From assembly GCA_017541145.1 (NCBI GenBank), contig JAFXZT010000128.1:1-34357 (forward strand): DNA of 34,357 nucleotides. The letters run 5' to 3'. Position numbers and translations under genes: made by a program. How positions within the stretch are numbered: the stretch's first letter is position 1; each line of letters begins with the position of its first letter. Under the pieces are notes generated by a model. That model was not told the DNA's origin. It did no database searches and saw only the letters and a list, made by a program, of their open reading frames with translations. Below are positions 4,022-32,228 of the stretch, in pieces. Source of the stretch: Bacteroidales bacterium (GTDB lineage: Bacteria > Bacteroidota > Bacteroidia > Bacteroidales > UBA3824).

Positions 4022-4048
4022 AATGCTGTGCGTTTTTCGGATTTGACG

Positions 4049-4079
4049 CAAAGTTAATAAATAAAGTTTGAAATGCCAA
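4049..4079 (-). promoter_or_regulatory. Promoter of the DUF1703-type ATPase gene
   Basis: On the minus strand TTG (4079-4077), 20 bp, then TAACTTTG (4056-4049), 27 bases before the ATG at 4021. The perfect spacing decides the start codon, because the longer alternative would begin within this element. The -33 element overlaps the stop codon of the ATPase remnant at 4080. Confidence 0.7.
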
Positions 4080-4720: not shown

Positions 4721-5698
4721 ATGGCAGTTTATAACAACATTTTGGACACTATCGGCAATACGCCGGTTGTTCAACTTTCGCACTTGAACACGGGCGTTAG
4801 TAGCCTGTTCTTAAAACTCGAAAATCAAAATCCGGGCGGCAGCATCAAGGATCGCACAGGCTTGAATATGATTGTTCAGGCGGAAAAACGTGGCGACATC
4901 CATCCCGGCGATCTTATTGTAGAGGCTACGGCGGGCAACACAGGTCTTGGTCTTGCACTTGCAAGTCGTTTGAAGGGCTACAAGTTGCTCCTTGTGATCC
5001 CCGACAAAATGAGCACCGAAAAAATAAACCATCTCAAAGCCCTTGGCGTTGAGGTAGTTATCACTCGTAGCGACGTGGGTAAGGGTCATCCCGAATATTA
5101 TCAAGATCTTGCGGCAAGAATTGCCAACGAGCGTGGCGGATATTTCATTAATCAGTTTGAAAACCCCGACAATCCTGACACTCACGCACATACCACCGCC
5201 CCCGAAATTTGGGAACAAATGGAGCACAAGGTTGACGCCGTAGTTGTGGGTGTAGGTTCATCGGGTACGCTAACAGGTCTGACAAAATTTTTCAAGGAAG
5301 TAAGCCCGCAAACAGAATTCATTCTCGCCGACCCAAAAGGCTCTGTGCTTGCCGATTACATCAATCTCCACAAACTCCGCAACGATGCAGGATCGTGGTT
5401 CGTGGAAGGCATAGGCGAAGATTTCATCCCGAAAATCGCTGATTTTTCGCTCGTCAGAAAGGCGTATGAAGTAACCGACGAGGAGAGTTTTTCGGCGGCA
5501 AGACTCTTGCTCCGTGAGGAAGGAATTTTGGCGGGATCATCAACGGGAACGCTTCTGAGTGCCGCCCTGCGCTACTGCCGTGAACAAACCACTCCCAAAC
5601 GCGTGGTGACAATCGCCTGCGACAGCGGCAACAAGTATCTCTCAAAAATGTTCAACGACAGTTGGCTCAACGAAAAGAATTTGCATTTGAGCATTTAG
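4721..5698 (+). CDS. PLP-dependent beta-synthase, cystathionine beta-synthase / CysM-like
   Basis: 325-residue fold-type II PLP enzyme. Seen: IGNTPVVQL near the N-terminus, PLP lysine K43 in GGSIKDR, asparagine loop EATAGNTG, and phosphate loop GVGSSGTLTG. The C-terminal part (VEGIGEDFIP, and DSGNKYLSKMFNDSWL at the end) is more typical of cystathionine beta-synthase than of CysK. No CBS domains follow. Likely reaction: serine or O-acetylserine plus homocysteine to cystathionine, in the cytosol, comparable to MccA of Bacillus. The next gene is a cystathionine gamma-lyase-type enzyme, which supports reverse transsulfuration from homocysteine to cysteine. O-acetylserine sulfhydrylase activity is the alternative. 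The gene follows the Cys-rich micro-ORF and is separated from the next gene by an AATTCATA-type repeat. Confidence 0.85.
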   Translation: MAVYNNILDTIGNTPVVQLSHLNTGVSSLFLKLENQNPGGSIKDRTGLNMIVQAEKRGDIHPGDLIVEATAGNTGLGLALASRLKGYKLLLVIPDKMSTEKINHLKALGVEVVITRSDVGKGHPEYYQDLAARIANERGGYFINQFENPDNPDTHAHTTAPEIWEQMEHKVDAVVVGVGSSGTLTGLTKFFKEVSPQTEFILADPKGSVLADYINLHKLRNDAGSWFVEGIGEDFIPKIADFSLVRKAYEVTDEESFSAARLLLREEGILAGSSTGTLLSAALRYCREQTTPKRVVTIACDSGNKYLSKMFNDSWLNEKNLHLSI

Positions 5699-5754: not shown

Positions 5755-6909
5755 ATGACAGCATTTTCAACAAGGGCGATCCATAATGGTGAAGAACCCG
5801 ATTTCAGAGACGGGGCAAGCGGCGATGTGGCTGTTCCGATTCATTTATCAACAACGTTTGCAAGGCTCAGAGCCGACTCACCCACAGCTGGTTACGAGTA
5901 CACACGCAGCCTCAATCCAACTCGCAAGGCGTTGGAGGAAAAACTTGCAGCCTTAGACGGCGCAAAGTATGGTTTGGCGTTTTCGTCCGGCTTGGCGGCG
6001 GCGTCCACGGTGATAATTTCGCTATTGAAGGCGGGCGACAATGTGATTGGTTTCGACGACCTTTACGGCGGCACTAGGCGACTTTTGAGCAATGTTTTTG
6101 TGAATTTTGACATCTCCGCAACCTACGTGGACGCCACAAAACCCGAAAACATCGAAAACGCCATCACCCCTAAATCCAAACTTATTTGGATAGAATCGCC
6201 GACCAATCCGCTGATGAAGTTGGCGGACATCAAAGCCATTGCGCAAATCGCTAAAAAACACGGACTTATACTCGTGGTTGACAACACTTTCCTCTCGCCG
6301 TATTTTCAACAGCCGTTGAGTTTGGGCGCTGACATCGTGGTTTACAGCACAACCAAATACATCGGCGGACACAGCGATGTTCTCGGCGGCTCTGTGGTGC
6401 TCAACAACGAAGATTTTTACAAAAAAATCGCTTATAATCAGAACGCTGTGGGTGCGGTGCTTTCGCCGTTCGACAGTTACCTGACCCTCCGTGGCGCCAA
6501 AACCCTCGCCGTGCGTATGGAACAGCACCAAAAAAACGCATTGGCTTTGGCTGAATTTTTGGAAAAATCGCCCAAGGTGAAACGTGTGCATTATCCGGCG
6601 TTGAAATCGCATCCGCAGCACGCTCTTGCAGAGGCTCAGTCGTCGGGTTCGAGTGGAATTTTCTCGTTTGAACTCGTTGGTACATTGGACGATGCGCAGA
6701 ATTTCCTCTCAAAACTCAAACTCTTTGCCACGGCAGAAAGTCTCGGCGGCGTAGAAAGTCTCATCGAGATTCCGGCGATAATGACCCACGCCTCCGTGCC
6801 CAAGGAAGTCCGCGAACAGAACGGCATTTCTGACACGCTGATTCGCGTTTCGGCAGGCATCGAGGATACCGATGATTTAGTGGCGGATTTCCGTCAGGCG
6901 TTGGGCTAA
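5755..6909 (+). CDS. Cystathionine gamma-lyase-like PLP enzyme (Cys/Met metabolism family)
   Basis: 384-residue member of the Cys/Met metabolism PLP family (fold type I). Seen: TRAIHNGEEPD at the start, YEYTRSLNPTR, the cofactor-stacking region FDDLYGGTRR, WIESPTNPLMKLADI, catalytic Schiff-base lysine K201 in YSTTKYIGGHSD, and the C-terminal ESLGGVESLIEIPAIMTH. Length is normal for cystathionine gamma-lyase, cystathionine gamma-synthase and MetC. The pairing with the upstream beta-synthase favours cystathionine gamma-lyase (cystathionine to cysteine, 2-oxobutyrate and ammonia), i.e. reverse transsulfuration. Family members interchange activities easily, so gamma-synthase or homocysteine gamma-lyase activity is possible. 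It is followed after 39 bp by a methyltransferase gene. Confidence 0.85.
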   Translation: MTAFSTRAIHNGEEPDFRDGASGDVAVPIHLSTTFARLRADSPTAGYEYTRSLNPTRKALEEKLAALDGAKYGLAFSSGLAAASTVIISLLKAGDNVIGFDDLYGGTRRLLSNVFVNFDISATYVDATKPENIENAITPKSKLIWIESPTNPLMKLADIKAIAQIAKKHGLILVVDNTFLSPYFQQPLSLGADIVVYSTTKYIGGHSDVLGGSVVLNNEDFYKKIAYNQNAVGAVLSPFDSYLTLRGAKTLAVRMEQHQKNALALAEFLEKSPKVKRVHYPALKSHPQHALAEAQSSGSSGIFSFELVGTLDDAQNFLSKLKLFATAESLGGVESLIEIPAIMTHASVPKEVREQNGISDTLIRVSAGIEDTDDLVADFRQALG

Positions 6910-8210: not shown

Positions 8211-9566
8211 TCACATCAGTCCCGCCATATACACCGGCAGAAATAGCACGCCGTTTTCTTCTTTGAGGTCGCCTGTGTGAAGCACCACGGGCGTGGAAAC
8301 ATAATCGTGAAAACGTTCTGTCATCTTTTTTAGCGATGAAAAAGTATAGTTCTTGCCGCTTTTGACCTCTACGGGGACAATGTTGTGGCGGCTTGTAACA
8401 CGGCTTTTCGCCAAAAGGAAGTCGATTTCCATACGTTCCTGAGCATTTTCGGAGTTTTTGGAGTAAAAATACAAGTTGTGCCCTTTGGCTGTAAACATTT
8501 GGGCAACAATGTTTTCCATCAACATTCCTTCATTGATATCGAGTTTTGAGAGAAGTATTTTTTGATAAACCTCGTTGGTGACGATTCCGCGCTCGTCAAA
8601 GGCGTGACTAATCAACAGTCCCGTGTCGTTCATATAGCATTTGAGGGTGGTGCGTTCCTCGTTCATTTTCAAACCTATATTTGGTGCGGTGCTGTTGTAA
8701 CAGATGTTTACCACACGCGAATCTTTGAGCCAAAAAAATGCATCGTCCAAGTCGCGGAACTTTGCGTCGGGCTTTACCGACGAAAGTTTGAATTTTTTTT
8801 CGTGGCGCGACAGTTGCGGCGGTATTTGGTCGAAAATTGACACTACTTTTTCCGCCTGTTCCGCAGCGTAGTTAAAAATATCGTTGCGATAAATATTCAG
8901 GATGTCGCGTTTTTCAGTGTCAACGGCATCAAAATCTTTGGTTTCAACGTATGTTTTCACAGCCTGAGGCATTCCGCCCACAATCATATACTGACGGAAA
9001 ATATCCATCGCCTTACGGTGAAAAACTTGTCCCATCGGACGTTTTTCGTTGTACATCTTGGTGATGAAATCCCACAGCATCTCGTTGTCAGTAGCCCACA
9101 AAAACTCTTCAAAATCCATCGGATACATTTTCAAAGTGCGTTCTTCCGACGGTACAACAATGCCTTTGAGGTTTTTCTTGATGCTGACGAGCGAGCCTGT
9201 TTCTATATAGTCGTAGCGACCGTCGGCAACCAAAAACTTGATGGCGGCACGGGCGCGGGGACATAATTGGATTTCGTCGAAGATTATCAGCGACTTACGT
9301 TCTATCAGTTTCACCTTGTAATGTTGCGAAAGATAAAAGAAAAGCGTGTCCAAGTCCTCCAAATAGATGTCGAACCATTCGCGGACAGCCGCCGACGCCT
9401 TGTTGAAATCTATAAGGATATACGACTCATATTCGTTTTTGGCAAATTGTTCCACAATGAAACTCTTGCCAATGCGTCTTGCACCCTCAATCAGCAAGGC
9501 TACACTACCATTCCTATTTTGCTTCCAATCAAGCAGTTGCGAATATATTTTGCGTTTCAGAATCAT
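8211..9566 (-). CDS. AAA ATPase with DUF4143 C-terminal domain
   Basis: 451 residues from the ATG at 9566; the upstream in-frame start at 9629 lies in repeat DNA. Seen: N-terminal MILKRKIYSQLLDWK, Walker A EGARRIGKS, Walker B SLIIFDEIQLCPRA, then a helical middle and a PD-(D/E)XK-like C-terminus with MEIDFLLAKS and VPVEVKSGKNY. This is the AAA_14 plus DUF4143 architecture, cytosolic and multicopy in Bacteroidota. The biological role is unknown; links to mobile elements or defence have been suggested for relatives. Its own start is preceded on the minus strand by four copies of a 17-bp word at 33-bp spacing, which may be an autoregulatory array. A deleted relative with a similar array lies at 4080-4312. 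Confidence 0.85.
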   Translation of the reverse strand: MILKRKIYSQLLDWKQNRNGSVALLIEGARRIGKSFIVEQFAKNEYESYILIDFNKASAAVREWFDIYLEDLDTLFFYLSQHYKVKLIERKSLIIFDEIQLCPRARAAIKFLVADGRYDYIETGSLVSIKKNLKGIVVPSEERTLKMYPMDFEEFLWATDNEMLWDFITKMYNEKRPMGQVFHRKAMDIFRQYMIVGGMPQAVKTYVETKDFDAVDTEKRDILNIYRNDIFNYAAEQAEKVVSIFDQIPPQLSRHEKKFKLSSVKPDAKFRDLDDAFFWLKDSRVVNICYNSTAPNIGLKMNEERTTLKCYMNDTGLLISHAFDERGIVTNEVYQKILLSKLDINEGMLMENIVAQMFTAKGHNLYFYSKNSENAQERMEIDFLLAKSRVTSRHNIVPVEVKSGKNYTFSSLKKMTERFHDYVSTPVVLHTGDLKEENGVLFLPVYMAGLM

Positions 9567-9574
9567 AATCTTGC

Positions 9575-9690
9575 ACCTTTTTGAGATTTTTCTGAGTGCA
9601 AATTTACACCTTTTTGAGATTTTTCGCAAGCCGATTTTACACCTTTTTGAGATTTTTCTGAGTGCAATTTTACACCTTTTTGAGATTTTT
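9575..9690 (-). repeat. 33-bp tandem repeat array upstream of the DUF4143 ATPase
   Basis: The 17-bp word ACCTTTTTGAGATTTTT (AAAAATCTCAAAAAGGT on the minus strand) starts at 9575, 9608, 9641 and 9674, an exact 33-bp period. The 16-bp segments between copies are partly conserved; two begin CTGAGTGCAA. The array ends 9 bases before the ATG of the ATPase (9566). Read on the minus strand it encodes an 11-residue repeat (KSQKGVxxxxE) in an open frame at 9563-9898, which I consider fortuitous. Confidence 0.85.
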
Positions 9691-9971: not shown

Positions 9972-10721
9972 ATGAAGATAGAATATCACAAAACTTGGAG
10001 TAACAACCTCGGTAGAGAGATTGAGTACAAAACTTACGGCGAAAGCGGTCGCGGTGTTTTGGTTTTTCCTTCGCAAGACCAACGTTTCTACGAATGGGAA
10101 GACAACGGTATGATTGAAGTTTTGGCTCCTATGATTGAAGCCGGTGAATTTCATCTGATTTGCTGCGACAGCATCGATGCCGAAACTTGGAGCCGCACCT
10201 CTGGCGATTACAATGAGCGTATCACGCTGCACGAAAAATGGTTCAACTATATCACTGACGAACTAATTCCAATGATCAACAACGGAAAAAAACTTTTAGT
10301 AACCGGTTGCAGTATGGGTGGTTACCATGCAGGAAACTTCTTTTTCCGTCGTCCTGAATTGTTCGATGGAATTATTTCGCTCAGCGGACTTTTTCACGCT
10401 GATTATTTTTTTCCTAACTACCAAAACAAACTGATTTACTTGAATTCACCGCTTGATTTCCTAAATGATTTAAGCGAAAGGAACATCAAAGTAGGACTTT
10501 ACCAAAACAAAACTATGATTTTTTGCTGCGGACAAGGTAACTACGAACGCGTAACCGGCAGCAGCACAAACAGATTAAAAGACGTTTTAGAAAAATTCAA
10601 ACTCAACGCTTGGTTCGACATTTGGGGCAAAGATGTCAGCCACGACTTTTATTGGTGGCGTCGTCAAGCTAAATACTTTTTTGAAAAAATAGCCTACGAA
10701 CATATCGGCAAGGCAGCATAA
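9972..10721 (+). CDS. Alpha/beta-hydrolase, esterase D-type (esterase 1)
   Basis: 249-residue cytosolic protein (no signal peptide) of the putative esterase family PF00756. Seen: N-terminal MKIEYHKTWSNNLGREIEYK, nucleophile S114 in TGCSMGGYHAGNFFF, and likely catalytic H224 in DVSHDFYWW. Substrate unknown; relatives hydrolyse small esters or thioesters such as S-formylglutathione, or trehalose/siderophore esters. It is a close paralogue of esterase 3 at 16177-16905: the catalytic Ser and His fall at identical residue numbers. It is the first gene behind the palindrome-bearing promoter, but a strong terminator-like hairpin (10732-10775) separates it from the rest of the cluster, so downstream genes may depend on readthrough. 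Confidence 0.85.
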   Translation: MKIEYHKTWSNNLGREIEYKTYGESGRGVLVFPSQDQRFYEWEDNGMIEVLAPMIEAGEFHLICCDSIDAETWSRTSGDYNERITLHEKWFNYITDELIPMINNGKKLLVTGCSMGGYHAGNFFFRRPELFDGIISLSGLFHADYFFPNYQNKLIYLNSPLDFLNDLSERNIKVGLYQNKTMIFCCGQGNYERVTGSSTNRLKDVLEKFKLNAWFDIWGKDVSHDFYWWRRQAKYFFEKIAYEHIGKAA

Positions 10722-10731
10722 AAAACTCAAA

Positions 10732-10775
10732 AAAAATGTAGTATTTCACTTCTTTTGATGAAATACTACATTTTT
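10732..10775 (+). terminator. Strong terminator-like hairpin between esterase 1 and esterase 2
   Basis: AAAAATGTAGTATTTCA (10732-10748) pairs perfectly over 17 bp with TGAAATACTACATTTTT (10759-10775), loop about 10 bases, ending in five T. The A-tract on the other side makes it potentially bidirectional. It probably ends most transcripts of esterase 1 or acts as an intra-operon attenuator. Confidence 0.75.
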
Positions 10776-10847
10776 AAATTGCACGAACAAAATAGCGGCA
10801 TATATATTTTTGTGCCGAGAAAAAAATTAGGAAAACATCAAAAAAAA

Positions 10848-11597
10848 ATGGTAGAAAAATTCGATTTTTGGTTTGAATCAGCACATGAAAACCGCAGGAT
10901 TCACCTCTACTTACCGGACAATTATTACAATTCGGACGAAAAATATGCCGTCTTATATATGTTTGACGGGCACAACCTCTTTTTTGACGGCGATGCCACA
11001 TTCGGTAAATCGCTCGGATTAAAAGAGTTTTTGGACAACTATTGGAAAAAACTAATCGTCGTGGGAATTGAATGTGCCAAAGACGATTGGACACGCGTTT
11101 GCGAATACTGTCCCTACGAACTCGACAGTCAGATTTACGGACATATTCCGGGCAGAGGTTATAAAACTTTCAAATGGATTGAAACCTCACTAAAACCGCA
11201 CATCGACTACCATTACCGCACAGTGCCTTTTCGCGAAGCAACAGCCATTGCAGGCTATTCTATGGGCGGAATGATGGCACTTTACGGCGCAATTCATTTC
11301 AACCATATTTTCTCAAAGTCGGCGGTGATTTCACCTGCAATCGCCCCCGCAATGGATGCATTCAGATACGAAATAAACACGGGCGTTTTGAACCTCGACA
11401 CAAGGATTTTCTTCTCATGGGGAAGCGTTGAACAACAGCGTAACAGCGGAATCGAAAACCGTATCCGCGAGATTGAATGGCTCGTTCAACAAAAAGGCGC
11501 GAAAACTTATCTTTTCAAAAACGAGGGCGGTGACCATAACGAAGCAAGTTGGCAACACGAAATACCTACATGGATGTGGTTTTTATGGGAGAACTAA
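10848..11597 (+). CDS. Alpha/beta-hydrolase, esterase D-type (esterase 2)
   Basis: 249 residues from the ATG at 10848. The longer frame from 10755 begins inside the terminator hairpin and adds residues without family similarity. A TATTTTTG box (10805-10812) lies 35 bases before this ATG and may be its own promoter. Seen: RRIHLYLPDNYY, VLYMFDGHNLFF, nucleophile S138 in AGYSMGGMMALYG, and a likely catalytic His in GGDHNEASWQHEIP near the C-terminus. No signal peptide, so cytosolic. It belongs to the same broad esterase family as its neighbours but is clearly divergent from esterases 1 and 3. The ATP-grasp gene starts 3 bp after its stop, so the two are translationally coupled. Confidence 0.85.
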   Translation: MVEKFDFWFESAHENRRIHLYLPDNYYNSDEKYAVLYMFDGHNLFFDGDATFGKSLGLKEFLDNYWKKLIVVGIECAKDDWTRVCEYCPYELDSQIYGHIPGRGYKTFKWIETSLKPHIDYHYRTVPFREATAIAGYSMGGMMALYGAIHFNHIFSKSAVISPAIAPAMDAFRYEINTGVLNLDTRIFFSWGSVEQQRNSGIENRIREIEWLVQQKGAKTYLFKNEGGDHNEASWQHEIPTWMWFLWEN

Positions 11598-11600
11598 CAA

Positions 11601-12800
11601 ATGAACGTAATATTTTTATCACCAAATTTTCCGTTGCATTTTTATAATTTTTGCAACAGACTCAAAGCCTTAGGCTGCAATGTTTTAGGAATTGGAGATT
11701 GTCCCTACGAGAATCTTAATAACAACGTAAAGTCTTCATTGACAGAATATTATTACGTCAGCTCTTTGGAAGATTACGACCAAGTAATGCGTGCGACGGC
11801 GTTTTTCACGTTCAAATACGGAAAAATCAACCACATAGAATCACAAAACGAATATTGGTTACAAACACAGTCGAGATTAAGGGAAGATTTCAACGTTGAA
11901 AACGGAATCCGCACCGCCGAACTTGAAAAAGTGAAATTAAAATCACAAATGAAAAAAAGTTACGCCAAAGCCGGAATCAAAACTGCGCGTTGTCTGTTGA
12001 TAGATACGCAAGGCAAAGCCATAAAATTTGCCAAAGCCGTTGGTTTTCCGGTAATTATAAAACCTGACAACGGCGTGGGCGCAAGCAACACATACAAGAT
12101 TAACGATTTAAGCGAACTTAACAACGTATTAAATAAAATTGATTGTCAAAACAAGGTGAATATCATTGAAGAATTTGTTCCGGGACACGTGGAAACTTTC
12201 GACGGAATCACCGACAAAGAAGGCAACATTTTGTTTTGTACGGGACAAGTTATGAAAATCACACCGCTTGCAATGCTTAGCGGCAACGGCGAAAACATCA
12301 GTTTCACAACCAATATGCAAAAATCTGATTTATTGGAAATTGGAGCAAAAGCGGTGAAAGCCTTCAACGTAAAACAGACGTTTTTTCATTTTGAATTTTT
12401 CCGTCTTGACCAAGACAAAGAAGGTCTTGGCAAAAAGGGCGAAATCATTGGTCTTGAAGTCAATATGCGTGCTCCGGGCGGCTACATTCCTGACAAAATG
12501 AATTACGCTTACGATGTTGATGTTTATCAAATTTGGGCGGAAAGTCTTGTATTTGGAGAAAACCGCAGTTTCAAAAACTATAATTTTAAACGGTATGTAA
12601 CGCATTACGGACGAGGAGCAAATGTTTCGTACCGAAATTCGGCGGAAGAAATCCGTAAAAAATTCTTTGATCGTCTTTTGATAGAAAACATACCTCCAAA
12701 AAGTATTTCTGGCGGTATGGGTGCGCAAGTGTTTATACTTAAATCACAGAGCATAAAAGAGTTGGAACAAGACGGAGATTTTATTTTAGCAAAGAAATAA
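11601..12800 (+). CDS. ATP-grasp carboxylate-amine/thiol ligase 1
   Basis: 399-residue ATP-grasp enzyme. Seen: an N-terminal preATP-grasp domain (MNVIFLSPNFPLHFYNFCNR), the glycine-rich ATP-binding segment GFPVIIKPDNGVGASN at about residues 147-162, IIEEFVPG, and metal ligands E286 and N288 in GLEVNMRAPGG. The family joins a carboxylate, via an acyl phosphate, to an amine or thiol. The substrate cannot be read from sequence. It is a paralogue of the second ATP-grasp enzyme at 14920-16155, sharing blocks such as SLTEYYxV and FKYGKIxxIES, with E286/N288 at the same positions. The adjacent gamma-glutamylcysteine ligase suggests a glutathione-synthetase-like step, but with a different partner. 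Confidence 0.85.
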   Translation: MNVIFLSPNFPLHFYNFCNRLKALGCNVLGIGDCPYENLNNNVKSSLTEYYYVSSLEDYDQVMRATAFFTFKYGKINHIESQNEYWLQTQSRLREDFNVENGIRTAELEKVKLKSQMKKSYAKAGIKTARCLLIDTQGKAIKFAKAVGFPVIIKPDNGVGASNTYKINDLSELNNVLNKIDCQNKVNIIEEFVPGHVETFDGITDKEGNILFCTGQVMKITPLAMLSGNGENISFTTNMQKSDLLEIGAKAVKAFNVKQTFFHFEFFRLDQDKEGLGKKGEIIGLEVNMRAPGGYIPDKMNYAYDVDVYQIWAESLVFGENRSFKNYNFKRYVTHYGRGANVSYRNSAEEIRKKFFDRLLIENIPPKSISGGMGAQVFILKSQSIKELEQDGDFILAKK

Positions 12801-12816
12801 ACAATATAGAAAAAAA

Positions 12817-14136
12817 ATGTTTCATACAGAACATCCTGAAATAGCAAAACTTTTGCTTACAGGCAATTTCGGCATAGAGCGTGAGACTTTGCGCGTTAAG
12901 GAAGACGGACGAATGAGTCATCTTCCCCACCCGTTTAATCCAGACAACAGTCATATTGTCAGAGATTTTTGCGAAAATCAAGTGGAAATAAACACCTCGG
13001 TAAAGACTTCAACGCAAGAGGTATTTAACGAACTTAAAAGTCATCACGAAGAAATTTTAGACATTCTCTCAAAACTACCTGAAAAAGAAACCGTTTGGCT
13101 TTCAAGCAATCCGCCTTTCATTGAAAACGAAGAGGATATTCCCGTGGCAAAATTTTTCGGTAAAAGTTCTGACAAAACAGCTTACCGCGAATACCTTTCC
13201 AACAAGTACGGACGCTATAAAATGGCATTTTCGGGCATCCATTTCAACTATTCGTTTTCAGGAAACCTCCTTAGAAAAAATTTTGAAATTGAAACGGGAA
13301 TTTCTGTCGGAAAAGGCGAGGAAACTCCTGAATATCAAAAATACAGCGACACATTGTATCTCAACCTCGCCGAAAACTGTTTGAAACACGGTTGGATAAT
13401 CGTAGCACTGACTGCCGCGAGTCCGCTTTCTGATACTTCATTTTGGGCTCCGGGCGTAGAAAATTCAACCGTTTTTTCGGGAATGTCGTCGATAAGATGC
13501 TCTGAATTAGGCTATTGGAACTTTTTTGTCCCGACTCTCGACTATTCAAGCAAAGAGGGTTACGCTGACAGCATTGAACGCTATGTTAAAAAAGGATTGA
13601 TTTCCGCTCCATCGGAACTCTACTACCCTATCAGACTAAAACCAAAAGGCAAAAATTTGTTGTCAACACTCAGATTATCAGGAATTAACCATATCGAACT
13701 CCGCTCCATAGACTTAAATCCGCTAACGGAATACGGAATCGATGTTCACGATATAGAATTTTTGCAACTTTTCTTGGTTTATCTTGCAAGCATTCCGAAC
13801 CAAAGACTTGATGACAACGACCAAGTTCAATCAATTCAAAACATAAAATCGGCGGCGCATTTTGATATTGTTAACACCAAAATTATGTATCCTTCAAAAC
13901 GCGCTTTAAGCATTACAAATGCCGTGTTTGAATTTTTGGATTCTATGCAATGGTTTTTCTCTCAGATAGATACGGGACAGAATCAGCATATTTATGACGT
14001 AATAGATTTTCAACGCAAAAAGTTTTCTGACCCGGACAAATACAACTACGCTCAAATAATTTTTAAAAAATACTCAGGGGATTTTGCTAAGAAAACCTTA
14101 GAAGAATCCATTTTAAATCGAAACAGAAATGTGTGA
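12817..14136 (+). CDS. Glutamate-cysteine ligase (GshA / GshF N-terminal type)
   Basis: 439-residue glutamate-cysteine ligase of the GshA family (PF04262). Seen: GNFGIERETLRVKEDG near residues 16-31, DFCENQVEINTSV, KMAFSGIHFNYSF, and SGINHIELRSIDLNPL. Reaction: glutamate plus cysteine plus ATP to gamma-glutamylcysteine, in the cytosol. Its length fits the catalytic half of bifunctional GshF; here the ATP-grasp partner is a separate gene rather than a fused C-terminal domain. It is flanked by an ATP-grasp ligase (16 bp upstream) and overlaps a class II amidotransferase gene by 8 bp, so it is tightly coupled. The neighbours resemble an EgtA-EgtC pairing more than plain glutathione synthesis. 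A related amine other than cysteine as acceptor cannot be excluded. Confidence 0.85.
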   Translation: MFHTEHPEIAKLLLTGNFGIERETLRVKEDGRMSHLPHPFNPDNSHIVRDFCENQVEINTSVKTSTQEVFNELKSHHEEILDILSKLPEKETVWLSSNPPFIENEEDIPVAKFFGKSSDKTAYREYLSNKYGRYKMAFSGIHFNYSFSGNLLRKNFEIETGISVGKGEETPEYQKYSDTLYLNLAENCLKHGWIIVALTAASPLSDTSFWAPGVENSTVFSGMSSIRCSELGYWNFFVPTLDYSSKEGYADSIERYVKKGLISAPSELYYPIRLKPKGKNLLSTLRLSGINHIELRSIDLNPLTEYGIDVHDIEFLQLFLVYLASIPNQRLDDNDQVQSIQNIKSAAHFDIVNTKIMYPSKRALSITNAVFEFLDSMQWFFSQIDTGQNQHIYDVIDFQRKKFSDPDKYNYAQIIFKKYSGDFAKKTLEESILNRNRNV

Positions 14137-14905
14137 ACTCTTTGGAATTAACAGTAAACGAAAAGTTGAGATAAACTCTTATCTTAAAACTTTTTACAGC
14201 CATAGCGAAAAGCATTATTCAGGTTGGGGATTAGCTTGCATTTACGGCGAGTCGGTATCGTTAGAAAAAGAAGCGATGAAAGCCGAAAGTAGTTTTTATC
14301 TCCGTCAAAGGTTAGCGCATCCGATTATAATCGACAACGCAATCGCCCATATCAGGCTCGCAACCGTGGGTTTGATGTGTTACGAAAATTGTCATCCCTT
14401 TGTAAAACACGACAATATGAACCGCTGTTGGACACTCGCTCACAACGGCACAATATTCGATTTTCCCGAATTAGAGTATTACAAAGCCACACAAGAAGGC
14501 ACGACCGATTCGGAAAGAATTTTATATTATATTATTGACAACATCAACGAATTACAAAAAACTCTCAAACGGAAAGCAAATTTTGAAGAACGTTTTGAAC
14601 TTCTTGACAATCTGTTATTTAAACTAAGTCATAAAAACAAAATCAACCTTTTGATTTGGGACGGCGAGTTTCTGTACGTGCATTACAACTATTCTAACAC
14701 GATGTTTGTAAAAGAGATTGACGATGGTAAGATTTTTTCGACCCGTCCGCTTGAAGATGACGGCAGTTGGCACAAAGAAGAATTTCTTAAACTTCTCGCC
14801 TACCAAAACGGACATCTCGTAGCAAGAGGCAAGCACACTACAAAAGAGTATTCTGCGCCCGTAAGAGATTGGGAATACAGAGATTACGATTATTCATTCC
14901 TCTAA
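14129..14905 (+). CDS. Class II glutamine amidotransferase (YafJ/EgtC-type)
   Basis: 258 residues beginning MCELFGINS, so Cys2 becomes the N-terminal nucleophile after Met removal. Further class II GAT motifs: YSGWGLACIY, AIAHIRLATVG, and LAHNGTIFDFPEL. No synthase or second domain is attached, so it probably acts as a stand-alone hydrolase on a gamma-glutamyl amide. EgtC of ergothioneine synthesis is such an enzyme: it removes the glutamate that EgtA, a GshA-type ligase, had added. The 8-bp overlap with the glutamate-cysteine ligase here makes an analogous add-then-remove gamma-glutamyl cycle plausible. Providing ammonia to a neighbouring ATP-grasp ligase is the main alternative. Confidence 0.85.
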   Translation: MCELFGINSKRKVEINSYLKTFYSHSEKHYSGWGLACIYGESVSLEKEAMKAESSFYLRQRLAHPIIIDNAIAHIRLATVGLMCYENCHPFVKHDNMNRCWTLAHNGTIFDFPELEYYKATQEGTTDSERILYYIIDNINELQKTLKRKANFEERFELLDNLLFKLSHKNKINLLIWDGEFLYVHYNYSNTMFVKEIDDGKIFSTRPLEDDGSWHKEEFLKLLAYQNGHLVARGKHTTKEYSAPVRDWEYRDYDYSFL

Positions 14906-14919
14906 AACTATACAAAACG

Positions 14920-16155
14920 ATGAATTTTATATTTATATCACCGCATTTTCCGCATACATATTGGGAATTTTGCGACAGACTAAAAAAGAACGGTGTTAAT
15001 ACCCTCGGTATTGCTGATGCGCCTTACGATTCTCTCAGCAACGAGGTAAAAAACTCTCTGACAGAATATTACAGGGTTGATAACCTTGAAAATTATGATC
15101 AAGTATATCGTGCGGTGGCTTTTTTTGCTTTCAAATACGGCAAAATAGATTGGATAGAATCCAACAACGAATATTGGTTGGAACAAGATGCACGCCTGCG
15201 CACTGATTTTCACGTTACTACGGGTTTGCAAGAGAGTCAGACGGCAGCCATAAAAGAGAAATCCGAGATGAAAAAATATTACATTTCGGGCAACATTCCC
15301 ACGGCTCGACAATTAAGGGCATCTCAGGGTGTTAAAAATGCGCTTGAATTTGCCGAGATAGTGCATTATCCGCTCATTTGCAAACCAGACATCGGAGTCG
15401 GTGCAGGCGGCACACACAAGATTCATAACGCTGACGAACTTATTGAATTTTACAACAAGGTTGCCGACACACAAAACTATGTAATTGAAGAGTTTATTAC
15501 GGGCGACATCTGCTCGTACGATGCGATAATCAATTCTTCAGGCATTCCGCTTTTTGAATCCATGACCGTTTGGCCGCCCTCGATTATGGACATCGTTAAC
15601 AAGCATTTAGACCTCGCATATTACGTTGATAAAACCATTCCCGAACCGCTCCAAGAGATTGGCAGAAAGACAGTTGAAGCTTTCAACGTTAAAAGCCGCT
15701 TTGTTCATTTGGAATTTTTCCGTTTGGATTCTGATCGCGGAGAATTGGGCAAAAAAGGTGATTTTGTGGCATTAGAAGTTAATATGCGTCCGGCAGGTGG
15801 TTACACTCCCGATATGATAAATTATGCTCATTCAACCGACGTTTATAAGATTTGGGCTGACATGATTTGTTATGACAAATCGCAAGAGGCGAGCGCATAT
15901 TATCACAACGGACGAAACGCACTTTCTTTGCCTTGGCACAATGAATATTATTGCGCATTTGCTTCACGACGGGATTCTCACAATTATGTTCATTCTGACG
16001 AGGAAGTAAAGGAACGCTATAAAAATCAGATGGTTATGTGTGAGCGTATGCCTGAAATTCTCTCCGGAGCAATGGGCAATCAAATGTTCACCGTCCGCCT
16101 CAATAGTTATGATGAAGTAAAAGAATTTGTAAATTTTGTTCACGCAAAGGAATAA
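14920..16155 (+). CDS. ATP-grasp carboxylate-amine/thiol ligase 2
   Basis: 411 residues from the ATG at 14920; the longer frame from 14869 is read from the end of the previous gene and lacks similarity. Seen: MNFIFISPHFPHTYWEFCDR, glycine-rich VHYPLICKPDIGVGAGG, YVIEEFITGD, and metal ligands E286/N288 in ALEVNMRPAGG. It is a paralogue of ATP-grasp ligase 1 with the same residue numbering, yet differs in the substrate region (for example MTVWPPSIMDIVNKH instead of TGQVMKITPLAM), so it may use another substrate. It is 14 bp downstream of the amidotransferase gene and 21 bp upstream of esterase 3. Confidence 0.85.
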   Translation: MNFIFISPHFPHTYWEFCDRLKKNGVNTLGIADAPYDSLSNEVKNSLTEYYRVDNLENYDQVYRAVAFFAFKYGKIDWIESNNEYWLEQDARLRTDFHVTTGLQESQTAAIKEKSEMKKYYISGNIPTARQLRASQGVKNALEFAEIVHYPLICKPDIGVGAGGTHKIHNADELIEFYNKVADTQNYVIEEFITGDICSYDAIINSSGIPLFESMTVWPPSIMDIVNKHLDLAYYVDKTIPEPLQEIGRKTVEAFNVKSRFVHLEFFRLDSDRGELGKKGDFVALEVNMRPAGGYTPDMINYAHSTDVYKIWADMICYDKSQEASAYYHNGRNALSLPWHNEYYCAFASRRDSHNYVHSDEEVKERYKNQMVMCERMPEILSGAMGNQMFTVRLNSYDEVKEFVNFVHAKE

Positions 16156-16176
16156 TTTTTGTATATTTGCCACATC

Positions 16177-16905
16177 ATGAAAATAGAATACAGAAAACAT
16201 TACAGCCATAACCTTGGGCGTGATATGGAATACAAGGTTTACGGACACGGCGGCAAAACTGCGCTTGTGTTTCCATCGCAAAACGGCAGGTTTTTCGACT
16301 ATGAAAATTTCGGAATGGTTAAGGAACTTGCTGATTTTATTGAAAACGGGCGTTTGCGTTTGGTTTGTTGCGATAGTATCGATCCTGAAACATGGAGCAG
16401 CAACAGTTGGGACAAACACGCACGCATTGAGCAACATGAGCGTTGGTATCGTTATATTTGCGACGAATTGATTCCAGAAATCGGTGATGCAGGGCATTTA
16501 ATCTCAACGGGTTGCAGTATGGGCGGTTTTCATTCGGCGAACTTTTTCTTCCGCCGTCCCGACCTTTTTGACACGTTGATAGCGCAAAGCGGACTTTACC
16601 ACGCAAGTTATTTTTTCGGCGATTACAGCGACGAACTTGTCTACTTAAATTCGCCCGAAGATTATCTTTCGTGGATGCCTAACGATCATTATTTTTGGAA
16701 CGAATACCGCAACCGACGAATTATAATCTGTGTAGGTCAAGGTAATTGGGAAGACGACCTTTTGGCTTCAACACGCCGTCTTGACACGATTTTAGCAAAT
16801 CACGGCGTACCAGCTTGGTTTGATTATTGGGGTTTTGACGTTGCCCACGATTGGTGCTGGTGGCGTCCACAGATTAGATATTTCATGGAAAAAGTTTTGT
16901 ATTAA
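16177..16905 (+). CDS. Alpha/beta-hydrolase, esterase D-type (esterase 3)
   Basis: 242 residues from the ATG at 16177, chosen because MKIEYRKHYSHNLGRDMEYK aligns with the start of esterase 1; the frame from 16159 adds six unrelated residues. Seen: nucleophile S114 in TGCSMGGFHSANFFF and likely H224 in DVAHDWCWW, both at the same numbers as in esterase 1. No signal peptide. It is the last gene of the cluster and is followed by a strong terminator. Each ATP-grasp ligase is thus paired with an esterase (esterase 2 with ligase 1, esterase 3 with ligase 2). These esterases might release or proofread an acyl or peptidyl ester. Substrate unknown. Confidence 0.85.
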   Translation: MKIEYRKHYSHNLGRDMEYKVYGHGGKTALVFPSQNGRFFDYENFGMVKELADFIENGRLRLVCCDSIDPETWSSNSWDKHARIEQHERWYRYICDELIPEIGDAGHLISTGCSMGGFHSANFFFRRPDLFDTLIAQSGLYHASYFFGDYSDELVYLNSPEDYLSWMPNDHYFWNEYRNRRIIICVGQGNWEDDLLASTRRLDTILANHGVPAWFDYWGFDVAHDWCWWRPQIRYFMEKVLY

Positions 16906-17116: not shown

Positions 17117-18100
17117 ATGGCACATATTCATCAATCAATAGCAGAACTTGTGGGAAAGACACCCCTTCTGCAACTCAACGGCTACAACAAGGCTAAAGAC
17201 CTGAAAGCCACTTTAATAGCAAAACTTGAATATTTCAATCCCAACCAATCAGTAAAAGATCGCATTGCACTTGCGATGGTTGAAACGGCAGAGAAAGAAG
17301 GCAAACTAAAACCGGGCGATACAATTATCGAATTAACGAGTGGAAACACGGGCGTAGGTCTTGCTGCCGTTGCAGCTGCAAAAGGTTATAAATTTCGTGT
17401 TTACATTCAAGACCAAGTCTCGAAAGAACGTTTTCAGGTGATTCACGCTTTTGGCGGCAAAACGGTAAAACTTTCGGAAGTACCTGAAATTGTAGAAAGT
17501 TTTGAGAAAAACGGTCCGGATTTTATTGAATGTGTCAAAGCCTTGGAGCGTCATGTTGCGGGCGAGAAAAATCTATGGTTTGCTGACCAAACGCGCAATC
17601 CTGCGAATCCGAACATACATTTCAACACCACGGGTCCTGAAATTTGGAACGACACTGACGGCGATGTTGATGCTTTTGTGGCTTGCGTGGGCACAGGCGG
17701 AACGTTGTCAGGGGTTGGTAACTTTTTAAAATCTAAAAATCCTAACGTAAAGGTTTTCGGAGTTCAGCCCACTGAAGATTCGTTTCAATCGCCCGAACGT
17801 CCTAACCAAGAAGAAATTACAGGCGTTCACCCGTTTGAAAACACCAAAGAAGAATACATTCCGGCTAACTTAGACAGAAAAGTTTACGACGGCTATTTTG
17901 AAATTCACACCGACCAAGCATACGAAGCGGCTCGGTTGTTAGCGAAAAAAGACGGCATTCTTGTTGGTGCATCGTCAGGAGCGGCACTTTACGCAGCAAC
18001 ACAACTCGCTCAACGAGAAGAATTTGCCGGCAAAAAAATTGTAGTTTTACTACCCGATACGGGTTTAAGATACCTATCAACGCATTTGTTTGAAGAATAA
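17117..18100 (+). CDS. cysK: Cysteine synthase (O-acetylserine sulfhydrylase)
   Basis: 327-residue fold-type II PLP enzyme. Seen: LVGKTPLLQL, PLP lysine K47 in NPNQSVKDRI, substrate loop TSGNTGVGL, phosphate-binding GTGGTLSGVG, and C-terminal GSSGAALYAA and LLPDTGLRYLSTHLF. Reaction: O-acetylserine plus sulfide to cysteine plus acetate, cytosolic. It is a closer match to CysK/CysM than the beta-synthase at 4721. It stands between the glutamate-cysteine ligase cluster, which consumes cysteine, and the nitrogenase-like genes. Its promoter carries a degenerate copy of the shared operator, so it may supply cysteine for the same response. A terminator follows. Confidence 0.9.
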   Translation: MAHIHQSIAELVGKTPLLQLNGYNKAKDLKATLIAKLEYFNPNQSVKDRIALAMVETAEKEGKLKPGDTIIELTSGNTGVGLAAVAAAKGYKFRVYIQDQVSKERFQVIHAFGGKTVKLSEVPEIVESFEKNGPDFIECVKALERHVAGEKNLWFADQTRNPANPNIHFNTTGPEIWNDTDGDVDAFVACVGTGGTLSGVGNFLKSKNPNVKVFGVQPTEDSFQSPERPNQEEITGVHPFENTKEEYIPANLDRKVYDGYFEIHTDQAYEAARLLAKKDGILVGASSGAALYAATQLAQREEFAGKKIVVLLPDTGLRYLSTHLFEE

Positions 18101-18405: not shown

Positions 18406-18439
18406 CCGCATAAAAAACAAACAAACTCTTGAATTGAAA

Positions 18440-19906
18440 ATGAATATTAATTTATCTAATTCCAATTTGTCGGTCCGTGAAACCCGAATTGGGTCTATTA
18501 CGGGCTACATCGGTTCGTTGAAAGACTTGGCGGAAAAATCGCAATGCGGCACGCTGAAAGGCTGTGCGCGGTGTTTTTCGCAGTCGAGCACGTGTCTTTC
18601 GCTATGCGGACTCTCGCAACTCGCCGGCATCAGGGATGTTGCAATCATTCACCACGGACCTTCGGGCTGTTCGGTAACGAGTAGCAACAGTTATTATATG
18701 TCGAAGGTAATGTCCAAAAAACGCGGCGTAACTTCCGACACCGTTTATGTCGGCACTGATATGAACGAAAAGGACACGATTTTCGGCTCAACCGAAGCCT
18801 TAAGAAAAATCATCTTTGAAGTAGACCGACGTTACAAACCGAAAGCAATTTTCGTGTCAAGTAGTTGTGCCACAGGTATTATCGGCGAAGACATCGACAG
18901 CATCGTCGATGAAGTGAAAGACGAAATTGCCGTCCCCGTGGTGGCTGTCCACTGCGAGGGTTTCAAGTCGAAAATTTGGGCTACGGGTTTCGACATTTCC
19001 GACCACGCAGTGTTGCAGGCGATTGTTCAGAAACCGCGTCCAAACGCTCCGAAAAACAACAAAATCAATTTCAAAAACTTCTTTGAATCGGCACGTCCCG
19101 AAATCATCGAAATGTTCAAGAATTTTGATTTGGACCCCGTTTTCCTCTACTGCAATTCCACCGTCGAGGAACTTTCAACACTTTCCGAAAACCTTGCAAC
19201 CACCTGTATCTGCGGCACTTTGGGCAACTACCTCGGCAACGCCCTCGAAGAAAAATACGGCGTGCCATACGTGCGCTCAATCAATCAGTGCGGCATCACG
19301 GGTTTTGAGGCTTGGCTCAGGGAAATTGGCCGCGTCACCAACCGCAGCGAAAAAATTGAGAAATACATCGCCGAACAGCGCGCCATTTATCTTCCTCAGA
19401 TTGAAGAAGTTAAAAAACAACTCGAAGGCTTGACTGCTGTCCTTGGAATGGGTCCGGGCTACACATTCGAAGTGTCGAGGGTTTTGAACGAACTCGGCAT
19501 CAAGGTGGTTTGGGCGTTGGCTTGGCATTACGACAAGAAATATGAAAACGGCGACGTTCCGCCTTCGATGAAATATCTGTTGGACAACGACATAGACTTT
19601 GAAACGTCGGTTGCCGACCAACAGAACTACGAGGTGATGAACATCCTGAGAAAATACAATCCCGATATGTACCTTTCGCGCCATCCGGGCAGCACAGTTT
19701 GGGCGATAAAGAACGGTACGCCTGCGGTTTATGTCGCCGACGAGTATATGATTTTCGGCTACAAGCACACGTTGGAATTTGCAAAAACCGTCCTTGACAC
19801 GGTTCAAAACCGCAGTTTCGAGGCCAACCTTGCAAAACGCTCCAAACTACCCTACACCCAATGGTGGTACGAACAGAATGTGGACAAGTTCTTTGAAAAT
19901 AATTGA
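18440..19906 (+). CDS. Nitrogenase component-1-like alpha subunit (NifD-like)
   Basis: 488 residues from ATG 18440; a TTG two codons earlier is less likely. It belongs to the NifD/NifE/oxidoreductase component-1 family. Seen: P-cluster-type cysteines at C52, C77 (HHGPSGC) and C143 (SSSCATGIIGEDI). C258 aligns with the cofactor-binding Cys275 of NifD, ahead of LGNALEEKYGVPYV. The His442 equivalent is not evident: the region reads GTPAVYVADEYMIFGY. The N-terminus holds extra cysteines (C36, C42, C45, C56). It pairs with the beta-like subunit at 20015. Lack of the His ligand and the sulfur-gene context argue against classical N2 fixation. A methylthio-alkane-reductase-like or other group IV-VI enzyme is possible; exact subgroup is not resolved. 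Confidence 0.85.
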   Translation: MNINLSNSNLSVRETRIGSITGYIGSLKDLAEKSQCGTLKGCARCFSQSSTCLSLCGLSQLAGIRDVAIIHHGPSGCSVTSSNSYYMSKVMSKKRGVTSDTVYVGTDMNEKDTIFGSTEALRKIIFEVDRRYKPKAIFVSSSCATGIIGEDIDSIVDEVKDEIAVPVVAVHCEGFKSKIWATGFDISDHAVLQAIVQKPRPNAPKNNKINFKNFFESARPEIIEMFKNFDLDPVFLYCNSTVEELSTLSENLATTCICGTLGNYLGNALEEKYGVPYVRSINQCGITGFEAWLREIGRVTNRSEKIEKYIAEQRAIYLPQIEEVKKQLEGLTAVLGMGPGYTFEVSRVLNELGIKVVWALAWHYDKKYENGDVPPSMKYLLDNDIDFETSVADQQNYEVMNILRKYNPDMYLSRHPGSTVWAIKNGTPAVYVADEYMIFGYKHTLEFAKTVLDTVQNRSFEANLAKRSKLPYTQWWYEQNVDKFFENN

Positions 19907-20004
19907 CAATGCACAATTGACAATTGACAATGAACAATGAATAATGGACAATGGTTTATTCCGAATGGAATTGTCAATTGTCAATTGTCAATTGTCAACT
20001 AAAA
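19907..20004. repeat. Inverted AATTGACA/TTGTCAAT repeat between the two nitrogenase-like genes
   Basis: After the stop at 19906 come several CAATTGACAATTGACAAT units, and about 60 bases later the complementary ATTGTCAATTGTCAATTG units. The two arms can form a hairpin within the alpha-beta intercistronic RNA, which could tune processing or expression of the beta gene. Same repeat family as at 86-118. Confidence 0.7.
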
Positions 20005-20014
20005 CGAAACGAAA

Positions 20015-21313
20015 ATGGCAAAAATACTTGATAAACAGAGATATAAATGTGCTTTGGCGGCGATGCAGACCGTTCAGGCAATCGACAGAGCGTGCCCGAT
20101 ACTACATTCAGGACCGGGTTGTGCACAGAAACTTTCCGACACAACGGGTTCGTCGGGCTACCTTTCACCGCAGATTTTCCCGTGCACGTCAATCAATGAA
20201 AAAGACGTGGTTTTCGGCGGTGTCAAGAAACTTTCAACAACCATTGAAAACGCGCTCAAAGTAATTGACGCTGACCTGTTTGTGGTGTTGACCGGCTGTA
20301 TTCCCGAAATCGTCGGCGACGACGCACAAGATGTGGTTTCCAAGTTTCAGGAAAAAGGCAAACCGGTGGTTTTTGCACCGTCGGCAGGTTTCAAAGGCAA
20401 CAATTACAAAGGACACGAACAAGTTGTAGATGCGATAGTTACGCAATTTTTGGAACGCTCCGACGACCGCGAAAAAGGTCTTGTTAACCTTTGGGCTGAC
20501 GTGCCTTATCAGGATCTTTTTTGGCTCGGCAACATCCGCGAACTCGAAAACCTCTTGACGGAAATCGGACTGAAACCAAACACAATTTTTGGCTATCAGC
20601 GCGGCATCGAGAACATCAAACGCATACCCAAAGCCGAGTTCAACCTGTTGGTTTCGCCGTGGGTGGGTCTTCAAAATATGAAGACTATGGAAAAACACCT
20701 CGGCATTCCGTACCTGCATTACCCCGTACTGCCCGTGGGCGCAACCGAAACGGGCAAATTTCTCCGCACCGTTGGAAAATTTGCCGGAATCGACAGCGAA
20801 AAAATCGAAAGTGTCATCAAAAAACACGAAGATTATTTCTATTATTTGATTTCGCGTTACGCCGATTTGTTTTTGGAAAACCGCGTGATCAACAAACAGT
20901 TCACCTTGGTTGCCGACGCCCAATATTCATTGGCTATCACCAAGTTTTTGGTGAATGATTTGGGATTGATTCCCGCCCGTCAGTTTGTCACCGACGACAC
21001 TCCCAAAAACTATCAGGACGCCATCACCGACGAATTTCAAAACCTCAACTACGGCATCAAAGCCGATGTTTCGTTTGAGACCGACGGTTACAAAATCCAC
21101 GAGCAAATCCGCAGCCACGATTATCACGGCTACCCGCTCGTCCTTGGCGGCTACTACGAAAAAGAGGTCACCGAATCGTTAAAAGGCAACTTCCTCAACA
21201 TTTCGTGGCCTGTTTTGGACAAAGTGGTGTTCGATAGTTTCTACGCAGGTTACACCGGCGGAATCCGCTTGATAGAAGACATTTACACGGTGGCTGTTCA
21301 ACGATTCAATTAG
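20015..21313 (+). CDS. Nitrogenase component-1-like beta subunit (NifK-like)
   Basis: 432-residue NifK/NifN-type protein. Seen: P-cluster-type cysteines C12 (RYKCALAAM), C36 (LHSGPGC) and C95 (VLTGCIPEIVGDD), all three expected positions, plus C27. It also has PVLPVGATETGKFLR and the C-terminal GYTGGIRLIEDIY. It is shorter than NifK (about 510-520), lacking the N-terminal extension. With the alpha-like subunit it should form an alpha2-beta2 heterotetramer with an intact P-cluster site, receiving electrons from a NifH-like reductase that is not in this window. It is probably cotranscribed with the alpha gene through a 108-bp repeat-containing spacer. Confidence 0.85.
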   Translation: MAKILDKQRYKCALAAMQTVQAIDRACPILHSGPGCAQKLSDTTGSSGYLSPQIFPCTSINEKDVVFGGVKKLSTTIENALKVIDADLFVVLTGCIPEIVGDDAQDVVSKFQEKGKPVVFAPSAGFKGNNYKGHEQVVDAIVTQFLERSDDREKGLVNLWADVPYQDLFWLGNIRELENLLTEIGLKPNTIFGYQRGIENIKRIPKAEFNLLVSPWVGLQNMKTMEKHLGIPYLHYPVLPVGATETGKFLRTVGKFAGIDSEKIESVIKKHEDYFYYLISRYADLFLENRVINKQFTLVADAQYSLAITKFLVNDLGLIPARQFVTDDTPKNYQDAITDEFQNLNYGIKADVSFETDGYKIHEQIRSHDYHGYPLVLGGYYEKEVTESLKGNFLNISWPVLDKVVFDSFYAGYTGGIRLIEDIYTVAVQRFN

Positions 21314-21350: not shown

Positions 21351-21388
21351 CGGAGCGGGGGCTTGACAAAAGTTTCCGCTCTGTTATT
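21351..21388. terminator. Weak hairpin between convergent genes
   Basis: CGGAGCGG (21351-21358) pairs with CCGCTCTG (21376-21383, one G-U) and is followed by TTATTTAT. It is the probable end of the nitrogenase-like transcript and perhaps of the convergent RloB-like transcript. Confidence 0.5.
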
Positions 21389-22104
21389 TATCTATACTCT
21401 TTGAAAATGCGATAAACGTATGTATATGATTGATTATCTAAATCATTGTTAGCGATTGCATTTTTGATATTTTCTTCGGCACTAGTAATGGCACGATCAA
21501 GATTTCCGACTGTGCAAAGTTTTTCGACCCAAGAAGAATTTTTGACGTAAGTTTCATCTTTCAATATGTTACATAATTTTTTGTCGGTTTTTGGAAAGAA
21601 AGATTTCATATAATCTGATAAAATCCTTTGCAATTTGGATTTTGGACCGCACGATTTAAATAATTCCGTAAAGTTATCAAAATGAAGCAGAAACCAATAT
21701 TCAATACTTGGCATACTATGACAAATAATTACAGAATCATTATGGACATATTCTCCACAAAATCTTTTGAATTTTTCCAATTCAGTCTTTCCTTTCTTGC
21801 GTATATCGTCCAAATCAAACACACAGAAAATTGTTGCTCCTTCATTTTTACTTTGAATTGCTTTTATTATTTCGGGAAATATATTTGCATACTGATTTTC
21901 TGCCCCAAAGTATTCAGGCTCAATTCTGAATTTATATTTGGTAATCTTGGAGATGTGTTCAAAATAGTAACGTTCTGTATTTTTGCCGCCACTGATTATA
22001 AAAGGAAGCAACGGATTGAGTTCGCGTTGCCCCTCCTTAGACAATTCTTTTAACTCTTCAAAGTATTGTTCTTCATCAACACTATCTCTTAAAATTTTTT
22101 CCAT
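21388..22104 (-). CDS. RloB-like TOPRIM protein (AbiLii-type effector)
   Basis: 238 residues, starting 6 bp after the stop of the ATPase gene on the same strand. Seen: LPFIISGGKNTERYYFEHISK, where RloB/TOPRIM proteins normally have EGxxTE, and the TOPRIM acidic motif IFCVFDLDDI. The family (PF13707) occurs next to RloA-type AAA ATPases in restriction and abortive-infection loci (AbiL, related to PARIS AriB). The likely role is the toxic nuclease-like effector released or triggered by the ATPase on phage infection. Oddity: the usual first Glu of the TOPRIM motif appears to be replaced by Gly, so catalytic competence is uncertain. Confidence 0.75.
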   Translation of the reverse strand: MEKILRDSVDEEQYFEELKELSKEGQRELNPLLPFIISGGKNTERYYFEHISKITKYKFRIEPEYFGAENQYANIFPEIIKAIQSKNEGATIFCVFDLDDIRKKGKTELEKFKRFCGEYVHNDSVIICHSMPSIEYWFLLHFDNFTELFKSCGPKSKLQRILSDYMKSFFPKTDKKLCNILKDETYVKNSSWVEKLCTVGNLDRAITSAEENIKNAIANNDLDNQSYTYVYRIFKEYR

Positions 22105-22110
22105 AATATT

Positions 22111-29355: not shown

Positions 29356-29445
29356 TCAATCAAAAAAATTATTACAAATTATATAAAAACTCAAAATAAT
29401 TTCTACTTTAGCGGCATTGATTTATCATACAAACAACTGAAAACC

Positions 29446-31050: not shown

Positions 31051-31079
31051 ATTAAACAAACCCAAAATCAATATCAAAC

Positions 31080-32204: not shown

Positions 32205-32228
32205 ATGTCAACAAAAAAAATAACAATC

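Follow-up and report, generated by a model that had tools for sequence, protein, structure and literature searches.

A conserved glutamate-cysteine ligase and class II amidotransferase gene pair, joined to ATP-grasp ligases in a Bacteroidales operon, is a candidate make-and-trim system for gamma-glutamylcysteine

A stretch of 34,357 nucleotides from a Bacteroidales bacterium (assembly GCA_017541145.1, contig JAFXZT010000128.1, genome of 4.6 Mb), hereafter called the window in its full length, harbors seven genes on a single strand (+, 9972-16905), which we named est1, est2, agr1, gcl, gat, agr2 and est3. Among them, a stand-alone glutamate-cysteine ligase (GCL) gene, gcl, is followed by gat, which encodes a class II amidotransferase. 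The two recur side by side in other genomes, and we tentatively read them as a pair that makes and trims gamma-glutamylcysteine (gamma-Glu-Cys), in this operon joined to peptide ligases. The genes are:

9972..10721, + strand: est1, alpha/beta hydrolase, paralogue of est3 (PF00756, 24.6 bits, cut-off 22)
10848..11597, + strand: est2, alpha/beta hydrolase of another subfamily (PF00756, 65.4 bits; ATG at 10848)
11601..12800, + strand: agr1, ATP-grasp ligase (four weak ATP-grasp models, 23-26 bits, two of the four above cut-off)
12817..14136, + strand: gcl, stand-alone glutamate-cysteine ligase (PF04262, 198.3 bits, cut-off 27)
14129..14905, + strand: gat, class II amidotransferase, probable gamma-glutamyl amidohydrolase (PF13230, 117.4 bits, cut-off 23)
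14920..16155, + strand: agr2, ATP-grasp ligase with L-amino-acid-ligase fold (PF13535, 29.8 bits, cut-off 27)
16177..16905, + strand: est3, alpha/beta hydrolase, often the partner of agr2 (PF00756, 36.1 bits)

As proposed in the original prediction, which was made from the letters and translations of the window, the six genes at 10848-16905 are tightly packed: with ATG starts at 10848, 11601, 12817, 14129, 14920 and 16177, the gaps from est2 to est3 are +3, +16, -8, +14 and +21 bp, and est1 lies ahead of them, ending 126 bp before est2. The predicted overlap between the ligase and a stand-alone class II amidotransferase was also recovered (8 bases), and the two ATP-grasp ligases are indeed paralogues (46% identity). 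The three proteins that had been called esterases are all hydrolases, but only est1 and est3 are paralogous (53% identity), whereas est2 is of a different type (21-25% to either).

The gene order est2-agr1-gcl-gat-agr2 is kept in L001 (Bacteroidales, goat abomasum; the nearest named relative of the window genome, agr2 96%), L004, L062 and L009 (Prevotellaceae), which confirms conservation beyond this genome and argues that the arrangement is no assembly accident. Within the genus, gcl was found in five of 18 genomes, the own genome included (one partial at a contig end), and agr1-type matches, with 44-47% to agr2, occurred in the same five (G000, G001, G010, G011 and G016); agr2-type matches, some of them partial, were detected in 14 of the 18. 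In the wider Bacteroidota gcl is rare (2/296 sampled, own included), the second match lying in a 769-residue open frame, with 30% identity. A strong gat match was obtained in 1/375 Bacteroidota, the own genome, and three more scored at E 1e-25 to 1e-17.

The gcl product has 439 residues and no fused ATP-grasp domain. Its nearest relatives among solved structures are the N-terminal domains of GshF; a bifunctional GshF was ruled out by the lack of a fusion and by a score of 265.1 bits on the GshF model NF002688, below the cut-off of 425. When 15 gcl sequences were aligned to E. coli GshA (chain 1v4g), the metal ligands E27, E29, D60, E67 and E328 corresponded to E21, E23, D50, E57 and E294 of the window protein, and the cysteine pocket residues F61, Y131 and L135 to F51, Y123 and L127. 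These residues as well as R296, R227 and H142 are invariant (15/15). PMC12817896 describes F61, Y131 and L135 as cysteine-binding and I146, R235 and H150 as glutamate-binding; it assigns the residues to S. agalactiae, yet we used them as E. coli numbering, which the metal-site positions match in chain 1v4g. I146 is not kept in the gcl sequences. Judged by these residues, cysteine is the likely, though not certain, acceptor.

In gat, C2, R76, N106-G107 and D127 are invariant in 10/10 aligned rows (the L004 row was trimmed just past the start codon, which leaves Cys2 unaffected), and by these residues gat belongs to the class II (N-terminal nucleophile) amidotransferases. We take Cys2 to be the nucleophile, the Asn-Gly pair to serve the oxyanion, and Arg and Asp to hold glutamine. 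The nearest solved relative is PDB 1te5 (function unknown; E 4.8e-25), and on the equivalog model of EgtC gat reached 40.4 bits, far under the cut-off of 218.65. It is probably a gamma-glutamyl amidohydrolase.

Evidence for the pair came from the Clostridia, where the gat profile alone was run on 391 genomes and the neighborhoods of all 15 matches (15/391, each at E 6e-87 or better) were read. In 12 of the 15, gat abuts or overlaps a same-strand GCL-type gene, which is gcl alone in one case, gcl together with a second kind, GCL2, in five (one of them split across two contigs), GCL2 alone in one, and a third kind, GCL3, in five. Combined with the window, L001, L004, L062, L009 and L112, which had been found via agr2 and are all paired (6/6), this makes 18 of 21 loci in which gat abuts or overlaps a GCL-type gene; measured between mechanical open reading frame (ORF) ends, the gaps run from -101 to +24. 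L003, whose contig begins with gat, was excluded. The pairing of a gamma-glutamyl ligase with an amidotransferase, first suggested for the window, thus proved to be conserved at the gene level. A gcl match at E 1e-20 was present in 29/391 Clostridia, ten of them of a short type (E 3.5e-79 or better) and 19 at E 4e-52 or weaker, many of the latter in GshF-like frames of 765-790 residues; this divide was drawn after the scores were seen. Neighborhoods were read for the ten short-type genes and for the matches in G354, G369 and G355. The gcl (10) and gat (15) positives share seven genomes (p 2.8e-9).

GCL2, of about 460 residues, adjoins gcl in 6/10 short-type Clostridia; it had no Pfam match in 5/5 tested, and on TIGR01436, the plant-type glutamate-cysteine ligase model with a cut-off of 463 bits, two of the three tested reached 27-41 bits. 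Strong GCL2 matches (E 2.3e-117 or better) were found in 7/391 Clostridia, six of which carry short gcl (hypergeometric p 3.1e-10). In L143 (1775-4438, - strand) the plant-type-like GCL2 and the GshA-type gcl are naturally fused into one protein of 887 residues, which adjoins gat. GCL3 matched PF04107 (42-61 bits, 5/5) and TIGR01436 (132-149 bits, 4/4, under the cut-off), and the GCL3 partners score on the EgtA model. Because the three kinds of ligase share one amidotransferase partner, the product they have in common is the most likely substrate of gat. An OLE RNA (L149:13573-14210, 418.7 bits) was also observed in a genome with gcl-gat.

The fold of the ATP-grasp proteins supports a role as peptide ligases. 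By structure agr2 is nearest to dipeptide-forming L-amino-acid ligases, with a whole-chain match to RizA/BL00235, and the ATP-grasp profile matched the L-amino-acid ligase 4wd3 at E 2.7e-19; it also reaches 7ta5, a chain named glutathione synthase, at E 2.6e-5. An esterase lies within 400 bp of agr2 in 52/80 loci, which were the best 80 of 476 and are thus biased to close relatives, and S120 and H230 are invariant in 78 est1/est3-type sequences. Outside the Bacteroidota, gcl-gat-agr recurs in L112, a Bacillota genome, and L142 (Clostridia) carries an agr1 orthologue (62% identical) near gcl, with two genes between.

Genes of sulfur metabolism (cysteine synthase, O-acetylhomoserine (OAH) sulfhydrylase/cystathionine lyase, methionine-ABC transporter, sulfite reductase) were counted within 6 kb of gcl/gat. 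They were present in 13/27 loci drawn from 25 genomes, including the doubtful L199, whose gene resembles a general amino-acid ABC ATPase, compared with 0/6 distant gcl loci (hand-picked from the 19 more distant Clostridia matches) and 12/75 agr-only loci, eight of these 12 being one recurrent arrangement; the loci vary in length, and contig ends truncate some of them, among others L144, L148 and L208. In L112 a T-box leader (656-884) lies upstream of a run of OAH sulfhydrylase, B3/4 protein, gcl, gat and agr2. Downstream of the operon the window has a cysteine-synthase-type gene and then nitrogenase-like genes, and further sulfur genes lie upstream:

4721..5698, + strand: second cysteine-synthase/CBS-type pyridoxal phosphate (PLP) enzyme (PF00291, 253.8 bits)
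5755..6909, + strand: cystathionine gamma-lyase/synthase-type PLP enzyme (read from the translation)
17117..18100, + strand: cysteine-synthase/CBS-type PLP enzyme (PF00291, 232 bits; TIGR01136, 330 bits, cut-off 344)
18434..19906, + strand: MarD-like (methylthio-alkane reductase) subunit (9FMG, E 1.4e-88)
20015..21313, + strand: MarK-like partner subunit (PF00148, 230.5 bits; MarK label from position alone)

Two relatives of the 5755..6909 product in other loci score as OAH sulfhydrylase and cystathionine-lyase type. The MarD-like protein matched 9FMG (MarD) and 9d9u (7.7e-88) far ahead of the next chain (1.2e-33), and it retains Cys270 and Arg428-His429; a Cys and an Arg-His pair are the MarD hallmark suggested in PMC12552129. 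A NifB-like gene (23732-24595) accompanies the MarDK-like genes (18434-21313); neither MarH nor NifH was seen by eye among the listed window ORFs, no search aimed at either having been made. Eight Paludibacteraceae/Bacteroidales loci (L025, L031, L033, L040, L041, L042, L045 and L047) show the order methionine-ABC (7/8), cysteine synthase, agr2 and est3, with MarD-like and MarK-like genes next where the contig extends far enough. This arrangement ties the ATP-grasp/esterase module to sulfur salvage of the Mar type.

We infer each reaction of the make-and-trim scheme from gene content, pairing, residues and fold. First, gcl, with its retained catalytic residues, would couple the gamma-carboxylate of glutamate to cysteine with ATP. 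Second, the RizA/BacD-like agr1 and agr2 may activate the free cysteine carboxylate of gamma-Glu-Cys, as the fold of agr2 suggests, and extend the dipeptide by one or two amino acids or amines, during which the gamma-glutamyl cap would shield the cysteine amine. Third, gat would take off the glutamate to release a Cys-X peptide, or would serve in the recycling of capped peptides; its catalytic residues are kept, and the substrate is proposed because gat is paired with glutamate-cysteine ligases of three kinds. In the fourth and least certain step, est1 and est3, which partner ATP-grasp ligases in many genomes, may act on an acyl group of the ligase product, by hydrolysis or by transfer; est2 is given no step in the scheme. 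The sulfur-salvage island, with its cysteine-synthase-type enzymes and Mar-like reductase, would provide the cysteine. With still less confidence, we propose that the pair is the basis of an undescribed low-molecular-weight thiol pathway common to at least two anaerobic gut phyla (Bacteroidota and Bacillota), which RizA-like ligases in rumen Bacteroidales extend to a new Cys-containing peptide. No published description of the gene set or of the pair was found in the open-access literature library.

Several observations weigh against this interpretation. The match of gat to EgtC (4zfj) is weak: the chain as a whole reaches E 2.9e-7, but no single stretch is significant. In the 15 gcl sequences the position of Gln144 of GshA, which is Gln in each of the four PDB relatives, always carries Met, and that of Thr242, which is Val in the two GshAB chains, always carries Trp; the acceptor may therefore be other than cysteine. 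The pairing has gaps on both sides: gat stands without a GCL neighbor in L199, L203 (with gcl on another contig of the genome) and L207 (with a GshF-length gcl match in the genome), and gcl without gat in the stretch read in L108, L109, L142 and L150, as well as in L144 and L148, where the contig end cuts the locus short. In 14/27 loci there is no sulfur gene within 6 kb, and GCL3-gat pairs show no second ligase in view. The ATP-grasp/esterase genes are a module separate from gcl/gat. None of the eight gat genomes without short-type gcl has an ATP-grasp relative (E 1e-20), neither do eight of the ten short-gcl Clostridia (E 1e-30; G670, G378, G462, G639, G574, G632, G683 and G732), and of 24 searched genomes that carry the ATP-grasp gene, 19 gave no gcl match (E 1e-5). 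The original idea of one pathway set is therefore not borne out. Support for that interpretation comes from the gcl/gat pair, the cysteine pocket, the sulfur enrichment and the peptide-ligase fold; a single indivisible pathway is not supported, and for the ester-linked thiol that had been considered there is no evidence.

The free separation of the modules across genomes is also what would be expected under the main rival, which we consider unlikely: a cysteine storage cycle, in which gcl stores cysteine as gamma-Glu-Cys and gat frees it, comparable to yeast Dug2-Dug3, with the ATP-grasp and esterase genes forming a separate peptide pathway that shares the sulfur island by chance. It would fit the five Clostridia with GCL3 and gat only, four of which have methionine-transporter or cysteine-synthase genes within 6 kb, and the cleavage of the gamma-Glu bonds of GSH and gamma-Glu-Met by Dug2p/Dug3p reported in PMC7617739. 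However, without regulation a tightly coupled pair that both forms and breaks down one dipeptide would run in a futile cycle, and agr1 follows gcl exactly within the genus.

Ordinary glutathione synthesis, with one ATP-grasp protein as glutathione synthetase and gat for turnover, is less likely than storage and quite improbable. The nearness of gcl to GshF (NF002688) and the contact of the ATP-grasp profile with 7ta5 speak for it, but L-amino-acid ligases match that profile far better, agr1 and agr2 had no GshB or GshF model match at E 0.001 (GshB was not sought elsewhere in the genome), and a second ATP-grasp protein and three hydrolases would be left unexplained. Similarly improbable is a glutaminase that supplies ammonia to the ligase, so that the pair yields an amide. 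Class II amidotransferases commonly act in this way and the presumed glutamine-binding residues are kept in gat, but the partner ligases are GCL-type, which use amino acids directly, and gat scores on the model of a hydrolase, EgtC, though below its cut-off. Least probable is that two unrelated mobile modules came together by chance in a sulfur island: both modules do occur alone, but the same five-gene order is found in five Bacteroidales loci, gcl-gat-agr again in L112 of the Bacillota, and agr1 with gcl in L142.

Elsewhere in the window, an RloB-like gene (PF13707; AbiLii match) adjoins an AAA ATPase matching AbiLi (21388-23412, - strand), a probable abortive-infection pair. AAA-ATPase/PD-(D/E)XK (PF09820, PF08011) and AAA_14/DUF4143 proteins are encoded at 443-1810, 2282-4051 and 8211-9629. 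At 28417-33938 a YARHG-domain protein (PF13308) is followed by three large ORFs with, by eye, lipoprotein-like starts, the first of which (29446-31050) had no Pfam match.

Many strict anaerobes are believed to do without glutathione, and little is known about their low-molecular-weight thiols. That one pair is kept across three GCL kinds, in many cases with cysteine and methionine genes close by, suggests that gut and rumen bacteria share a function in sulfur metabolism, and the position of the operon beside a methylthio-alkane-reductase-like system may show the destination of salvaged sulfur.

Taken together, we read the whole as a new form of the logic seen in EgtA/EgtC and in Dug3. In ergothioneine synthesis the glutamate-cysteine ligase EgtA caps cysteine and the class II amidohydrolase EgtC removes the cap. 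The likeness lies in the cap-and-uncap enzyme pair and in the scores of GCL3 on the EgtA model and of gat on that of EgtC; in contrast, the gat score is far too low for an EgtC, and the window has ATP-grasp ligases and, as first noted, no EgtB/EgtD-like gene among the scanned window proteins, the rest of the genome not having been searched for either. Yeast Dug2-Dug3, also of amidotransferase type, cleaves sulfur peptides at their gamma-glutamyl bonds (PMC7617739), a likeness to the proposed function of gat, whereas gat is bacterial and coupled to a synthesising ligase. With GshA/GshF gcl shares PF04262 and the catalytic residues, but it lacks the fused second ligase and has Met in place of Gln144. 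The L-amino-acid ligases RizA, BL00235 and BacD/YwfE, finally, share their fold with agr2.

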